From a bacterium (GTDB taxonomy: Bacteria; Cyanobacteriota; Sericytochromatia; S15B-MN24; VGJW01): a stretch of 32,500 nucleotides of DNA. Made by a program: the position numbers and the translations under genes. Positions 18,060-28,155 of the stretch are shown piece after piece. Where the stretch lies: NCBI GenBank assembly GCA_021781555.1, contig JAJXWQ010000032.1:1-32500 (forward strand), in the 5' to 3' direction. The notes under the pieces are model-generated. The model saw only the letters and a program-made list of their open reading frames with translations, did not search any database and had not been told where the DNA came from. The first letter of the stretch is position 1, and each line of letters starts with the position of its first letter.

Positions 18060-18129
18060 CGGCCCCGAGGCGCGCTCGCGTGCCCACCAAAAGAGCGACC
18101 GCGCCGTCTGGGCTGACGGCGCGGATCAG

Positions 18130-18211
18130 TGCCGAGGACGAGACTTGAACTCGTACGCCTTTCGGCACACGCCCCTCAAACGTGCGCGTCTGCCAGTTCC
18201 GCCACCTCGGC
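18130..18211 (-). tRNA. tRNA-Leu (GAG)
   Basis: A complete 82-nt class II tRNA. The acceptor stem is GCCGAGG/CCTCGGC with discriminator A; the D arm contains GGAACTGGCAGAC; the anticodon stem CACGT/GCGTG closes the loop TTGAGGG, giving anticodon GAG; the long variable arm is TGCCGAAAGGCG; the T arm is ACGAG-TTCAAGT-CTCGT. The 3' CCA is not encoded and must be added. It closely resembles bacterial tRNA-Leu(GAG). Confidence 0.96.
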
Positions 18212-23549: not shown

Positions 23550-24674
23550 TCAGTTCCAGATCTCGGGCGAGCCGCGGTCGCGGTAGGTGATCGTCGTCTG
23601 GTTGCCCGTGGTGGCGATCGTGGCCAGCGATCGCGAGAGGTTGGGATTGGTGCTGTCGACCTCGCCCGAGAGCATGCCATTGTCGAGCGAGAGGTCGAAG
23701 GCCAGCATCGCCTGCTGATCCATCATCGTGAGCTCGCCCGAGTTGCCCTCGAGGGACAGCATCGTGACCTGGAGCTGCTGGCTGTTGCCCTGGTCGTCGG
23801 TGAGCGAGAGCGAGCCATCGGAGAAGGCCAGGGCCCCCTCGCTGACCTTGCCGCTGAGGTTGCAGCTGATGCGCGGCAGGTCGACGTTGATCTGGACCTG
23901 CTGGAGCTGGATCGTCTGGCTGTTGGTCGGGGTCTGCGATCGGCTCAACGACAGGCTGATGGTGCCTGTCTGCCCCTCGTAGTTGAGGTTGACGGTGGCG
24001 TTGATGTCGTCGGGTTGGCTGGTCTTCCAGAGGTCGCCGAAGACGAAGGGCTGATGCGGGTCGGGGGAGCTCATCTTGCTCCAGGTCGTGCGCGTGGTGG
24101 TGGAGACCTGCAGCGAGCCCGTCATCCCGATCCGCGATCGCAGGAGGTTGACGTCGTAGGTCAAGGATTTGCAGCCGGGCGGCATGCAGGCGATGGCGCC
24201 GGAGTCGGGGATCTGACCCTGGCTATTCTGCGGGTTGAAGAGGAACTGCATCAGCTCCAGCTGGTCGGTGCTCTCGAGCTCGTAGACCTCGCCGTTGGCT
24301 TCCTGAGCCGACTGCGGCATGTTGTCGCCGTAGATCGGTGCGGCCAGATTGGGATCTCGCGCGGGCATCGGAGGCCACGGGACGGTTTGCAGATAGGGGC
24401 CGAGATCCGTGCCGTAGAAGGTCGGGATGCCCATCGCCAGGACCTCCTGGATGCCCTTGATCATCCAGCTCAGGGGCTGGTTGTAGGACAGCGAGAGTGC
24501 GTGTTGCATGCCGCGGAGGATCTGCAGCTGGGCCTGTTCCTGCGGAATGGGGCCGAACAGGCCCTCGATCTGCAGGCAGCCCGAGGTCAGCGCAACCGCG
24601 ATGGCAGCAACCAGGCGCGCTGCGATCCGGCGTCCGGGGGGACGCGGAGGCTTTTCTGTGGGGGGTGCTCGCAT
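23550..24674 (-). CDS. Putative lipoprotein (374 aa)
   Basis: Starts at ATG 24674 (AGGA about ten bases upstream). The n-region is long and basic (KPPRPPGRR), then ARLVAAIAVALTSGC, with a lipobox-like TSGC (Cys near 33). The mature part begins with a helical region (QAQLQILRGMQHALSLSYNQ) and continues as a largely strand-rich domain (GMTGSLQVSTTTRTTW, INATVNLNYEGQTGTISLSLS, QTIQLQQVQINVDLPRISCNL, GNSGELTMMDQQAMLAFDLSL) ending GNQTTITYRDRGSPEIWN. A CMPPGCK pair could form a disulphide. No family is recognised. It is divergent from the B12 operon, sharing the 160-base upstream region; whether it belongs to the same physiology is unknown. Confidence 0.75.
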   Translation of the reverse strand: MRAPPTEKPPRPPGRRIAARLVAAIAVALTSGCLQIEGLFGPIPQEQAQLQILRGMQHALSLSYNQPLSWMIKGIQEVLAMGIPTFYGTDLGPYLQTVPWPPMPARDPNLAAPIYGDNMPQSAQEANGEVYELESTDQLELMQFLFNPQNSQGQIPDSGAIACMPPGCKSLTYDVNLLRSRIGMTGSLQVSTTTRTTWSKMSSPDPHQPFVFGDLWKTSQPDDINATVNLNYEGQTGTISLSLSRSQTPTNSQTIQLQQVQINVDLPRISCNLSGKVSEGALAFSDGSLSLTDDQGNSQQLQVTMLSLEGNSGELTMMDQQAMLAFDLSLDNGMLSGEVDSTNPNLSRSLATIATTGNQTTITYRDRGSPEIWN

Positions 24675-24814
24675 GGCCGTAGTCCTGGGCTCATTATCGG
24701 CTCCCTGAGGGCATGCCTTGCCCTGGAAAGCCGTTGTGCATGGACTTGCGGTTTCCCGCCGGCGCCACCTTCTCCGGCAGGTCGTACGCTGGCGGCCGAT
24801 TCCACGGTCCTTGA

Positions 24815-24835: not shown

Positions 24836-24865
24836 TTGACAGCAGATCGCTCGGTAGGCTACGCT
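24836..24865 (+). promoter_or_regulatory. Promoter of the B12 operon
   Basis: TTGACA, 18 bases, TACGCT. The -35 is perfect and the -10 poor. Transcription would start near 24872, just where the riboswitch begins. Confidence 0.5.
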
Positions 24866-24869
24866 TGCG

Positions 24870-25020
24870 ACCGTACGAAACGGGAGTACAGGGGAAGTCC
24901 GGTTCAAGTCCGGCGCTGTGCCGCAACGGTAAGGCGATGAGCCAAGCCCGATACCCTGCCCCGGTTCCGTGGATTCGCTCTTCGAGGCAAGGAGCTAACA
25001 CGACCAGGCCTGCGGCCTGC
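24870..25020 (+). promoter_or_regulatory. Cobalamin (B12) riboswitch
   Basis: The conserved core is clear: GGGGAAGTCCGG, CAAGTCCGGCGCTG, TGCCGCAACGGTAA, then GATGAGCCAAGCCCGATACCCTGCC, in the order and spacing of the AdoCbl/MeCbl riboswitch (B12 box CCGCAAC-GTAA). Ends are approximate. A terminator hairpin and the start of a TonB receptor gene follow directly, the usual arrangement for B12-repressed uptake genes. Confidence 0.93.
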
Positions 25021-25032
25021 CGCCAGCTTTTT

Positions 25033-25057
25033 GCCCTCTGGTTAGAGGGCTTTTCTT
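25033..25057 (+). terminator. Riboswitch expression platform: intrinsic terminator
   Basis: GCCCTCT-GGTT-AGAGGGC followed by TTTTCTTTT: a perfect 7-bp stem and U-tract. The downstream arm also contains AGAGGG (25044-25049), correctly placed eight bases before the TTG start at 25058, so the same hairpin could both terminate transcription and hide the ribosome site. Confidence 0.85.
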
Positions 25058-27028
25058 TTGGGACGCAAATCCCGCGTCAGGCGGGTGTCCGTCGCGGGGA
25101 CGATCGCGGCGGCGCTGGGACCCGTGCTTTTGCTTTCGGGCCCCGGTCTGGCGGCGACGACGCCGGCGTCCGCAGCGACTCGGGCAGCTGCGGCGGGGCC
25201 GCCTGCGCGAGCGTCCGTGACGACCGTGGCGACGGGATCGGCGGCCAGGCTTCCGCTCAAGCTCCCCGAGCTCGAGGTCGTCGGCTCCCACCCTCGTTTC
25301 GGTGGCGCCTCCGGGGACACGGTGGTGATCACACATCGCCAGATCGCCGCCTCCGGGGCTTCCAATCTGGGCGACCTGCTCGAGGGCCAGCCGGGTATCT
25401 CGCTGGTCCGGTACGGCGCCGCGGGGAGCCTCGTTACCGCCTCTCTGCGGGGAAGTACTGGCGAGGGCATCTTGATCCTGCGGGACGGCGTGCGCCTGAA
25501 CGATCCCCAGACCGGGACCACGGATCTCTTCGGAGTGAGCCTTCTCGGGGTTGACCACGTCGAGATCCGCGAGGGCGGCGCGTCGGCTCGCTACGGCCAG
25601 GATGCCATCGGCGGCGTCATCAACCTGGTCTCCGGGCCCCCGCATCCGTCGCTTTCACTGGGGCTGGGATCTTACGGAGCCGAACGGCTCCAGGTGGAGA
25701 TCGGCCACGGCGAGGGAGATGATCGCGAGGAGGCGGCCATCGAGGCCGAAGCCGCGACCAACGCCTTCCCGGAGATCTATCGCGGAGCCCAGGAACTGCG
25801 GGCTAACGCGCAGTATCACGAGGCCGGAGCCTGGTTGTCCAGGACCCTTCCGGTGGCATCGGGGAGCCTGACGGCTCAGTTTCTCTACGGCTCGGACCAG
25901 CGGGGCGTCCCGGGCCCCATCAATCAGCCCTCCCCCGAGGCTCAGCAGCGCGACGAGTCGCTTCTGGGTTCGGTCGTGTTCGCGCCTCTGGCCGGTGCGA
26001 TCATCCAGCCCGTCCTGTCCCTCTCGCACCGCCACGCGACCCTCGACTACGACGATCCCCAGGCTGCCTACGGCCCGCCCGAGACCCTGGGAACCGTGGA
26101 GTCAACGCAGTTCCACGCCACCGCCGGCTACGATCGCGGTGCCCACGACGCGTCGGTCGGCCTGGGTCTGACGCGGGAGGCCGATACCGCTTCGGGGTTC
26201 GGGTTCCGTTCCGACTACGACGGGTCGGTCTTTGGCACGGACTCCTACCGGCTCGGTCACACGGTTCTTTCCGGGGGCCTGCGCGCGGATGACGACACGC
26301 GCTGGGGGGCCAGCTTGAATCCGCATGTCGGGGTCAGCCACGTGTTCTTCTCGTGGCTGCGCCTGCGCGGGCAGGCGGGCCACTCCTTCCATCCGCCGTC
26401 GTTCAACGACCTGTACTGGCCCAAGTCCGCCGACGCCGCCGGCAACCCCGACCTCCACCCCGAACAGGCCACGACGGGGGATGTCGGCCTGGATGCCGCA
26501 GATCGCTCGGGCGACAGGGCCGCGCTCACCGCCTTCGTCGCCGCCGGGCAGGGGACCATCGTGTGGGCCCCGGGAGCCGGGGGGCAGTGGTCACCGTCCA
26601 ACGTGGGGCAGACCTGGACCCAGGGGCTCGAGGGGCACGTGTCGGCGTCCTTGCCGGCATCGACCTCGATCTCTCTGCACGGCACGTGGCAAGCCGTGAC
26701 CGACGTGACTCCGGGTGATAGCAGCAAGGGGATGATCCTGCCCTACCAGCCGTCGTTGCTGGCTGGCGCCACCGCCGGGTGGCAGCCCCTACGCCAGGTC
26801 CAGGGAACGATCACGCTCGATTACACGGGCCAGCGCCCGGACACGGCGGCCAACACCGAGTACTTGCCGGCCTTCAGCCTGCTGTCGGCGCGCGTCGCGT
26901 ACGCGCCGACTTCATCCGACACCCTCGCGATCGAGGGTCAGAACCTGCTCAACACGTACTACGTGCTCGAACCGTACTACCCCATGCCGGGCCTGACGAT
27001 CTGGACTACCTGGACCCGGCGCCTGTGA
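25058..27028 (+). CDS. btuB: TonB-dependent receptor, BtuB-like (cobalamin)
   Basis: Outer-membrane receptor of 656 aa. The TTG start gives a proper signal peptide: basic GRKSRVRRV, hydrophobic TIAAALGPVLLLSGPGLAA. A TonB-box-like LPELEVVGS precedes the plug domain (about 75-190): ASNLGDLLEGQPGISLVRYG, SLRGSTGEGILILRDGVRLND, VDHVEIREGGASARYGQDAIGGVINLVSG, all plug hallmarks. The remaining 450 residues are strand-rich, with the late barrel motifs HSFHPPSFNDLYWP, NPDLHPEQATTGDVGLD, FSLLSARVAYAP and GQNLLNTYYVLEPYYPMPG. The cobalamin riboswitch directly upstream is the reason for assigning B12 as substrate; the protein alone does not prove it. The next gene starts 11 bases after its stop. No TonB/ExbBD or BtuCDF genes are in the window. 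Confidence 0.93.
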   Translation: MGRKSRVRRVSVAGTIAAALGPVLLLSGPGLAATTPASAATRAAAAGPPARASVTTVATGSAARLPLKLPELEVVGSHPRFGGASGDTVVITHRQIAASGASNLGDLLEGQPGISLVRYGAAGSLVTASLRGSTGEGILILRDGVRLNDPQTGTTDLFGVSLLGVDHVEIREGGASARYGQDAIGGVINLVSGPPHPSLSLGLGSYGAERLQVEIGHGEGDDREEAAIEAEAATNAFPEIYRGAQELRANAQYHEAGAWLSRTLPVASGSLTAQFLYGSDQRGVPGPINQPSPEAQQRDESLLGSVVFAPLAGAIIQPVLSLSHRHATLDYDDPQAAYGPPETLGTVESTQFHATAGYDRGAHDASVGLGLTREADTASGFGFRSDYDGSVFGTDSYRLGHTVLSGGLRADDDTRWGASLNPHVGVSHVFFSWLRLRGQAGHSFHPPSFNDLYWPKSADAAGNPDLHPEQATTGDVGLDAADRSGDRAALTAFVAAGQGTIVWAPGAGGQWSPSNVGQTWTQGLEGHVSASLPASTSISLHGTWQAVTDVTPGDSSKGMILPYQPSLLAGATAGWQPLRQVQGTITLDYTGQRPDTAANTEYLPAFSLLSARVAYAPTSSDTLAIEGQNLLNTYYVLEPYYPMPGLTIWTTWTRRL

Positions 27029-27039
27029 GGAGAATGCCC

Positions 27040-28155
27040 ATGCATAGAAAGTCCCTGTTCCGCTCCGACCTCTTCCCGGCCGTAGCGCTGATCTCTCTGG
27101 GGCTGGCAGCCTGCAAGCTCGGGGCGCCGACTGCGCCATCCGGGGTCAGCGACAGCGGAACGATCGCCGCGACTCCGGTGCCCACGGCAACGCCTGGTAC
27201 CGGCACCACCACCACCCCGTACATGTTCGTCATGAACGGCCTGGCCAAGACCATCGACCAGGTCGACCTCTCGACCGATGCCCTGACCAAGTCCGTCCTC
27301 ACCACCGGCCTGTATCCCAACCAGCTGGCGTCCATCGGGTCGTATGACTGGCTGGTAAACTCGGGCGACGCCACGATCTACAAGCTCGATCTCGCCGGCC
27401 ACCAGAATCTCGGCACCATCAACCTGCCCACCGGATCCAATCCCATGACCCTGGCCCCGCTCTCGAGTGCGGCCACGGAGGCGATCGTCACCAACAACAT
27501 CGCCCAGTACGTCGACTTCGTGAACCTCTCGACCCTGGCGCTCGAAGCCACGGCTTCCCTGCCCGCAGGACATTCCGCCGGGGGCGGCCTGGCGATCGCC
27601 GATGGCAAGGCCTACGTCGCTGCCGTCACGGCCGATTACACGAACTATCCGGCCGTCTCGTATACCTTCTCTGGCATCGACGTCATCGATCTGTCCACGC
27701 GCAGCCTGCTGAAGACGATCACGATGGATGCGACGGCCGATCCCCTGCCCGTGCAGGTGGATCCCAATGGCAAGATCGATGTCGGGTACTCAGAGGGCGT
27801 GTACATCATCGATCCGTCCACCGACCAGATCACCCAGACGATCGACTTCGGTACGCCGATCAACTCGCTCGCCTTCGCGTCGGCCTCGGTCGGATACGGC
27901 TCTGCGGACGGGGACGCGCTGGTGTCCTTCGATCCGTCCACGGGGGCCATCATCCGGGACCAGGCCCACGAGCTCAAGGTCGGCGACAGCAGCGTGGGCG
28001 ACATCCAGGTCTTCGACGGCAAGCTCTACGTGCCCAACTTCTCCACGAGCACGGTCACGTCGGTCGATCTGGCGTCCGAGGCCACGGCGTCGGTCTGCCA
28101 GCTCACGTCCAAGAGCGGTCCGCAGGAGCTGGCCTTCGTCACGGCGACCCCCTGA
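27040..28155 (+). CDS. YncE/BtuG-like beta-propeller lipoprotein
   Basis: A 371-aa lipoprotein: basic MHRKSLFRSD, hydrophobic PAVALISLGLAAC with lipobox LAAC, then a Thr/Pro-rich tether (about 40-65) suited to surface display. The rest is a repeated blade pattern (strand, turn, DLST-type motif): DQVDLSTDALTKSVLTTG, YKLDLAGHQNLGTINLPTG, VDFVNLSTLALEATASLP, IDVIDLSTRSLLKTITM, VYIIDPSTDQITQTIDFG, LVSFDPSTGAIIRD and VTSVDLASEATASVCQL, seven units, as in YncE-type propellers. In Bacteroides, BtuG is a surface propeller lipoprotein that captures B12 and caps BtuB; position after btuB under a B12 riboswitch makes the same role likely here (inference). I chose ATG 27040: GGAG lies seven bases upstream, while ATG 27034 is too close to it. 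Confidence 0.85.
   Translation: MHRKSLFRSDLFPAVALISLGLAACKLGAPTAPSGVSDSGTIAATPVPTATPGTGTTTTPYMFVMNGLAKTIDQVDLSTDALTKSVLTTGLYPNQLASIGSYDWLVNSGDATIYKLDLAGHQNLGTINLPTGSNPMTLAPLSSAATEAIVTNNIAQYVDFVNLSTLALEATASLPAGHSAGGGLAIADGKAYVAAVTADYTNYPAVSYTFSGIDVIDLSTRSLLKTITMDATADPLPVQVDPNGKIDVGYSEGVYIIDPSTDQITQTIDFGTPINSLAFASASVGYGSADGDALVSFDPSTGAIIRDQAHELKVGDSSVGDIQVFDGKLYVPNFSTSTVTSVDLASEATASVCQLTSKSGPQELAFVTATP

Follow-up and report, generated by a model that had tools for sequence, protein, structure and literature searches.

Analysis of the window, a stretch of 32,500 nucleotides of contig JAJXWQ010000032.1 (assembly GCA_021781555.1), identified a plus-strand unit in which a cobalamin riboswitch is followed by the gene of a BtuB-like TonB-dependent receptor and by that of a BtuG-like propeller lipoprotein. 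The unit is probably a vitamin B12-repressed system for cobamide uptake at the outer membrane that works like the BtuBG system of Bacteroides, with a propeller belonging to a separate lineage. The computational findings are the riboswitch and the two genes in this order, their joint conservation, the fold predicted for the propeller, the BtuF-like and BtuC-like genes elsewhere in the genome and the domain of a B12-dependent enzyme in the absence of CbiC. From these we infer that the propeller binds B12, is exposed at the surface and contacts the receptor as a lid.

The riboswitch aptamer, of the adenosylcobalamin (AdoCbl) type, occupies positions 24865–25005 of the plus strand. It was matched by RF01482 with 48.6 bits, just under the gathering score of 50 (expectation value E 4.7e-8; 401 bases searched in E-value mode), and no family was reached when the whole window was scanned with Rfam at the gathering score. 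Also RF00174 matched here, with 29 bits against a cut-off of 31.5, and this was the sole match of that family in the genome. At the same place in the five other loci of the class (loci and genomes are referred to by L and G numbers, respectively), a gathering score was exceeded in four, by RF01482 in L008 (57.6 bits) and L012 (59.3 bits) and by RF00174 in L009 (41.3 bits) and L010 (41.5 bits); L011 gave 37.4 bits, below the gathering score. With the two families taken together, four of the six class loci passed, the window and L011 lying below. A pattern scan found a terminator-like hairpin followed by a T-run at 25033–25050 on the plus strand, which likely serves as the riboswitch's expression platform. 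Five of the six class loci have a similar hairpin just 5' of the receptor start, and in L011 one was sought there and not found.

The receptor gene extends to position 27028 on the plus strand. Its start is ambiguous, as the listed TTG at 25058 falls inside the T-run of the terminator and a GTG at 25085 is an alternative. The product matched both the plug (PF07715, 68.6 bits) and the barrel (PF00593, 104.5 bits) families of Pfam above their cut-offs, and its closest solved relative in the PDB was BtuB (E 4.5e-21). Among 29 NCBIfam models the best was TIGR01779, TonB-B12 (E 6.9e-41), with 140.5 bits against an equivalog cut-off of 599.7, which was not reached. The same model ranked first for all eight receptors scanned, those of the window, L008 and L012 and five from four loci outside the class. 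In the receptor alignment (A2), the L010 row starts upstream of its own riboswitch and is overlong, and other receptor rows may carry false starts.

The propeller gene (27040–28155, plus strand) begins 11 bases past the receptor stop and encodes 371 residues. The lipobox LAAC was read from the translation at residues 22–25 (27103–27114); its cysteine is invariant across the five class propellers aligned, and a lipobox-type signal was read in all six. The residues after Cys25 are KLGAPTAPS, with no acidic residue among the first nine. A single-sequence phmmer search of the protein against the PDB gave no match up to E 1. With a profile built of five class propellers, the top row was hydrazine synthase beta (5.5e-9), ahead of BtuG1 (5.7e-6). 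BtuG chains, at 5.7e-6 to 0.0027, made up 11 of the 13 best rows, including 8baz, which is labelled only as 'surface layer protein', and no YncE was found with this profile at E up to 1.

Structure prediction with AlphaFold was based on a 15-row alignment with BtuG-like rows (predicted local distance difference test, pLDDT, 82.8; predicted template modelling score, pTM, 0.80) and, as a control, on ten rows without any BtuG-like sequence (pLDDT 79.8, pTM 0.78). Both models have 28 strands according to DSSP, forming seven blades over residues 61–367 (27220–28140), and in both a stretch of about 30 residues forms a disordered tether, pLDDT being below 50 at residues 21–57 in one and 20–57 in the other; the part that follows the lipobox comprises residues 26–57 (27115–27210). 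In the Foldseek searches of the PDB with both models, 16 of the 17 best rows were BtuG chains from Bacteroides (E 8e-16 to 5e-13) and the remaining one was an archaeal surface-layer propeller, the next non-BtuG propeller following at 1.7e-11 and Escherichia coli YncE near 3e-10. The siderophore-lid propellers XusB were not among the 50 PDB rows listed by Foldseek and VIA-align, and no inference is drawn from this.

A preliminary description of the window, made from the sequence alone, had proposed a cobalamin riboswitch core, a TonB receptor and, 11 bases on, a lipobox protein with seven blades and a flexible tether, and had taken the two proteins for a capture-and-import pair analogous to BtuB and BtuG. 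The riboswitch was confirmed by the E-value of RF01482 and by the four of five equivalent loci that exceed a gathering score, and the order of receptor and lipoprotein by the agreement of the Pfam plug and barrel, the LAAC motif and the gene spacing. The blades and the tether were recovered as the 28 strands and the low-pLDDT linker of two AlphaFold models. As to the fold, on which the proposal had been made to depend, the solved structures nearest to the prediction by Foldseek were those of BtuG. The idea of an analogous pair is supported by this and by the presence of the pair in six class genomes, with B12 binding being the inferred part.

The suspicion that the host is not one of the Bacteroidota also proved correct. 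It belongs with Candidatus Sericytochromatia, as its same-family relative G003 corresponds to a Candidatus Tanganyikabacteria record, a group that NCBI puts in Candidatus Sericytochromatia of the Cyanobacteriota/Melainabacteria group. The window genome (G000) is 3.8 Mb in size and 98.65% complete; the phylum includes many genomes of 1.8–2.2 Mb. The propeller was present in six of 59 relatives, the window genome counted, and a search of 292 genomes of the phylum at E 1e-10 returned the same six and one weak match (G010, 3.3e-12). Six of the 18 class genomes matched the receptor strongly (E 1e-248 or lower), and these six also matched the propeller strongly (E 1e-47 or lower), the two genes being adjacent. 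The survey for recurrence of the pair that had been suggested thus found it in every class genome strongly carrying either gene. Six class genomes had only a weak propeller match and four only a weak receptor match, and the DNA searched of the 19 class loci with weaker receptor matches contained no propeller. RF00174 gave a single match per genome in all six pair carriers, directly 5' of the receptor, and one match each in three other class genomes, not at such a pair. A separate observation concerns class member G011, in which RF00174 matched with 27.7 bits, under the cut-off, directly before a BtuF-type-looking gene (L159, 7096–8105) and which had no BtuB-like receptor match in its genome.

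CbiC, taken as a marker of corrin synthesis, was found in none of the 18 class genomes and in seven of 14 control genomes, and the activation domain of the B12-dependent enzyme MetH was found in 14 of the 18, G000 among them; G005, one of the six pair carriers, gave no match to the MetH domain. With this pattern B12 import makes sense, and the class members seem to be B12 users that import the vitamin and appear not to make it, synthesis being judged by the single marker CbiC and not by a full pathway search. A BtuF-like binding protein (PF01497) was found once in each of the six pair carriers, on which ground the propeller as a substitute for a missing BtuF was dropped. G000 also has one FecCD permease gene (BtuC-like) with an adjoining ATP-binding cassette (ABC) ATPase.

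Read together, these parts suggest the following course of events. When cellular cobalamin is low, the riboswitch would let transcription continue beyond the terminator, and both proteins, the BtuB-like receptor and the lipoprotein with the propeller, would be produced together. The propeller, held by its lipid and the floppy linker of some 30 residues, would be seated on the receptor, where it would capture external cobamides and pass them on. The receptor would move these inward with energy from TonB, to a BtuF-like protein and a BtuCD-like permease encoded elsewhere.

The relationships of the two proteins were examined with trees that were all quick searches of a biased sample. The propeller tree, which is unrooted, included 60 rows with one propeller per locus, leaving out L181, L183 and L165 as near copies and L160 as the same as L060. 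In it the six class members formed one group (support 99), which joined eight Neomarinimicrobiota and Ignavibacteriales rows with a support of 97 in the Shimodaira–Hasegawa-like approximate likelihood ratio test (SH-aLRT). BtuG proper with two solved chains was separate (93), and generic propellers formed a third group (63). A clade of the class and BtuG proper excluding the eight rows was rejected (p 0.0108). The generic propellers sit between BtuG and the present lineage, and a sister relation of the two is not readable from the unrooted tree. The main receptor tree had 96 rows, omitting L036, which is from the same record as the genome of L011, and rows shorter than 450 amino acids; there the class grouped with an Armatimonadota receptor that has no propeller (94). 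A single clade of the class receptors and the receptors of the same-clade propeller loci was rejected (p 0.017), and one of the class receptors and all receptors of the Fibrobacterota–Chlorobiota–Bacteroidota (FCB) group was not (p 0.194). In a mixture-model tree of 44 rows hand-picked from the 96, the class fell outside the FCB receptors with a weak support of 9.

Because the propeller falls with those of Fidelibacterota and Ignavibacteriota and the receptor is placed apart from the receptors encoded next to them, the two genes probably differ in history as far as these trees tell, the details not being firm. To the alternative 'convergence or transfer' posed by the preliminary description, the answer is therefore mixed: the propeller has its affinity with Fidelibacterota and Ignavibacteriota and not with BtuG proper, and the receptor does not share this affinity.

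The related loci in other phyla came from a receptor-profile scan of genome contigs, the best 80 of 529 relatives being compared, so that proportions within this set should not be read as rates. The class propeller profile matched in 15 of these loci, one of them that of a class member itself, and an iterated propeller profile in 18. Six loci with weaker matches (L034, L060, L083, L085, L089 and L067; Ignavibacteriota or Bacteroidota) all had a cobalamin riboswitch, with 77–124 bits, and are btuB–btuG loci of the known sort. In the phylum of L060, a wider profile matched in 43 of 99 genomes sampled, and a receptor (E < 1e-20) lay beside a propeller in 24 of 30 loci fetched. As a side observation, riboswitch-controlled BtuG-like propellers of L083 (from 6784) and L089 (from 3068), from Ignavibacterium and Bacteroidetes, seemingly lack a lipobox, so that some such proteins may be secreted or anchored otherwise.

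The strongest propeller matches outside the class were those of Ignavibacteriales L015 and L016 and of Neomarinimicrobiota (Fidelibacterota) L087, L082, L019, L065, L040 and L056. The Rfam search excluded L061, L071, L076 and L056, the genome of L056 being searched with RF00174. In L056 a cobalamin riboswitch of 79.5 bits lies directly 5' of a BtuB-like receptor, followed by a propeller of the same clade, and this locus ties the propeller lineage to B12. L087 (96–11496) contains a GntR-type regulator, an ADP-ribosylglycohydrolase, two receptors, the propeller, an S-adenosylhomocysteine (SAH) hydrolase, a nucleoside transporter and an adenosine deaminase. Genes of the same kind were recognized, mostly by reading, in L015, L016, L040 and L082, with a BtuF-like protein by Pfam in L015, and all five loci combine a second tandem BtuB-like receptor with SAH, nucleoside or BtuF-like genes. 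In the genome of L040, a riboswitch-headed receptor with a BtuG-like propeller (L190, 4838–8277) adjoins a riboswitch-free pair with the other propeller type. Like tandem receptors occur also in L025, L029, L035, L044 and L052, where the profile found no propeller.

Several observations weigh against the interpretation of the propeller as a counterpart of BtuG. It falls outside the BtuG sequence clade, and it scored 20.1 bits with Pfam PF16819 (DUF5074), not passing the gathering score of 27.2; the related propeller of L087 passes with 37.3 bits. The Z scores of VIA-align do not part BtuG (28.6–32.5) from other propellers, which have the same range, and the conserved N, NSG and NP motifs presumably resemble those of generic YVTN repeats and not a B12 pocket. 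No Rfam cobalamin match was found in the DNA searched of seven related loci (L015, L016, L087, L082, L019, L065 and L040), of which L019 and L065 offered little DNA upstream of the first receptor. Since relatives' loci hold SAH hydrolase, nucleoside or BtuF-like genes, the lineage, as judged by gene content, may not always serve B12. In addition, a sequence reading shows the Bacteroidota-type acidic export signal to be absent after the lipobox cysteine. In BtuG2 the available text of the original study gives this signal as MKWD (PMC6143338); another class of bacteria may use a different lipoprotein export signal. The protein is called BtuG-like and not BtuG because it shares the lipobox, the fold and the gene context, and not the clade, a Pfam score above gathering or the export signal.

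The missing export signal would also fit a propeller that faces the periplasm and aids the receptor from inside, as an assembly factor or a periplasmic carrier of B12, instead of a surface lid. This is unlikely, as each of the six genomes has a BtuF-like protein of its own, so that a periplasmic carrier is not missing, and as BtuG is the closest match of the predicted fold. That the pair serves another ligand, such as a siderophore as in XusAB or a nucleoside-like compound, with the cobalamin riboswitch kept for other reasons, appears quite improbable. The receptor is far under the TIGR01779 equivalog cut-off, close relatives of the propeller lie in an SAH/nucleoside locus without Rfam riboswitch match, and XusB of Bacteroides is described, in the part of the source available, as a seven-bladed siderophore lipoprotein lid (PMC13142918). 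However, in all six loci the only cobalamin riboswitch match of the genome is just upstream, and the B12 model came first for every receptor scanned. The gene order and riboswitch match those of Bacteroidota and Ignavibacteriota btuB–btuG loci, as would be expected if a true BtuG had been acquired with its BtuB from Bacteroidota as a single block, which we consider very improbable. The trees led to this being set aside: the class and BtuG proper without the Fidelibacterota-type clade were rejected as a group (p 0.011), and the class receptors were not with FCB receptors in either tree, though an all-FCB receptor clade was not rejected (p 0.19). Most likely the propeller acts as a capture-and-lid protein that resembles BtuG and comes from a second lineage, and its pairing with BtuB has been reshuffled.

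As far as the sources could be consulted, BtuG has been reported, from a BlastP survey that covered 313 gut genomes, to occur exclusively in Bacteroidetes (PMC6143338). The lid and the hand-over in Bacteroides are backed by structures, and uptake with the help of a lid is presented as a trait of Bacteroides in the available part of PMC10404256, which names a few aromatic residues. No BtuG-like pair outside Bacteroidota was found among literature titles, in which most subscription journals were not covered, and the available parts of PMC11287211 and PMC12751083 contain nothing on distribution. According to the accessible text of a study from 2026, B12-binding lipoproteins with DUF4465 occur in several phyla including Cyanobacteriota, about 40% of one group being near PF16819 propellers (PMC13398666). 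The present result is only moderately surprising because that study already points to a wider spread of scavenging sets.

The combination of receptor and lid, previously described from Bacteroides of the gut, is suggested to be more widespread. Tentatively, and at somewhat less than an even chance, propeller lids could form an exchangeable module, of which a second lineage in Sericytochromatia, Fidelibacterota and Ignavibacteriota was combined with BtuB-like receptors from different branches. Lid-assisted cobamide uptake would then exist outside Bacteroidota, and in Fidelibacterota the lid would possibly serve another ligand linked to adenosine and SAH salvage. A conserved B12-controlled pair in a class neighbouring the cyanobacteria, with its propeller from another lineage, would imply repeated recruitment of lids for TonB receptors or their transfer between phyla, and a B12 route would be named for organisms that use the vitamin and apparently do not make it.

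Around the unit, a tRNA synthetase gene (class I, W/Y type) lies downstream of the propeller gene. A divergent frame on the minus strand (23550–24680) had no Pfam match at E 1e-6 and a start that looks lipoprotein-like by eye, and a tRNA-Leu (gag) is encoded on the minus strand at 18129–18211. Scans for tandem repeats and tRNAs gave nothing bearing on the receptor and propeller.

Of the known systems compared, Anabaena BtuB1/BtuB2 shares with the window the phylum-level group, the cobalamin riboswitch and BtuB, but in the available text BtuG, propeller and lipoprotein each have 0 occurrences (PMC10878165). In XusA–XusB of Bacteroides, too, a seven-bladed lipoprotein forms a lid on a TonB receptor; this pair differs in its DUF4374 propeller and siderophore ligand, and the part of the source available mentions no cobalamin riboswitch (PMC13142918). 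The eight Fidelibacterota and Ignavibacteriales pairs have a propeller of the same clade, with a lipobox by reading, directly after a BtuB-like receptor, whereas their receptors are of another branch and, in seven of the eight, the DNA searched gave no cobalamin match with Rfam. From Bacteroides BtuB–BtuG the present unit differs in its host class, separate propeller clade and receptor from another branch, as well as in lacking the Bacteroidota export signal and in that neither BtuCD genes nor genes of additional B12 lipoproteins were seen within the unit. With that system, as described in the accessible parts of PMC6143338 and PMC10404256, it shares the cobalamin riboswitch, the BtuB-type receptor, the adjacent seven-bladed lipoprotein and the linker.

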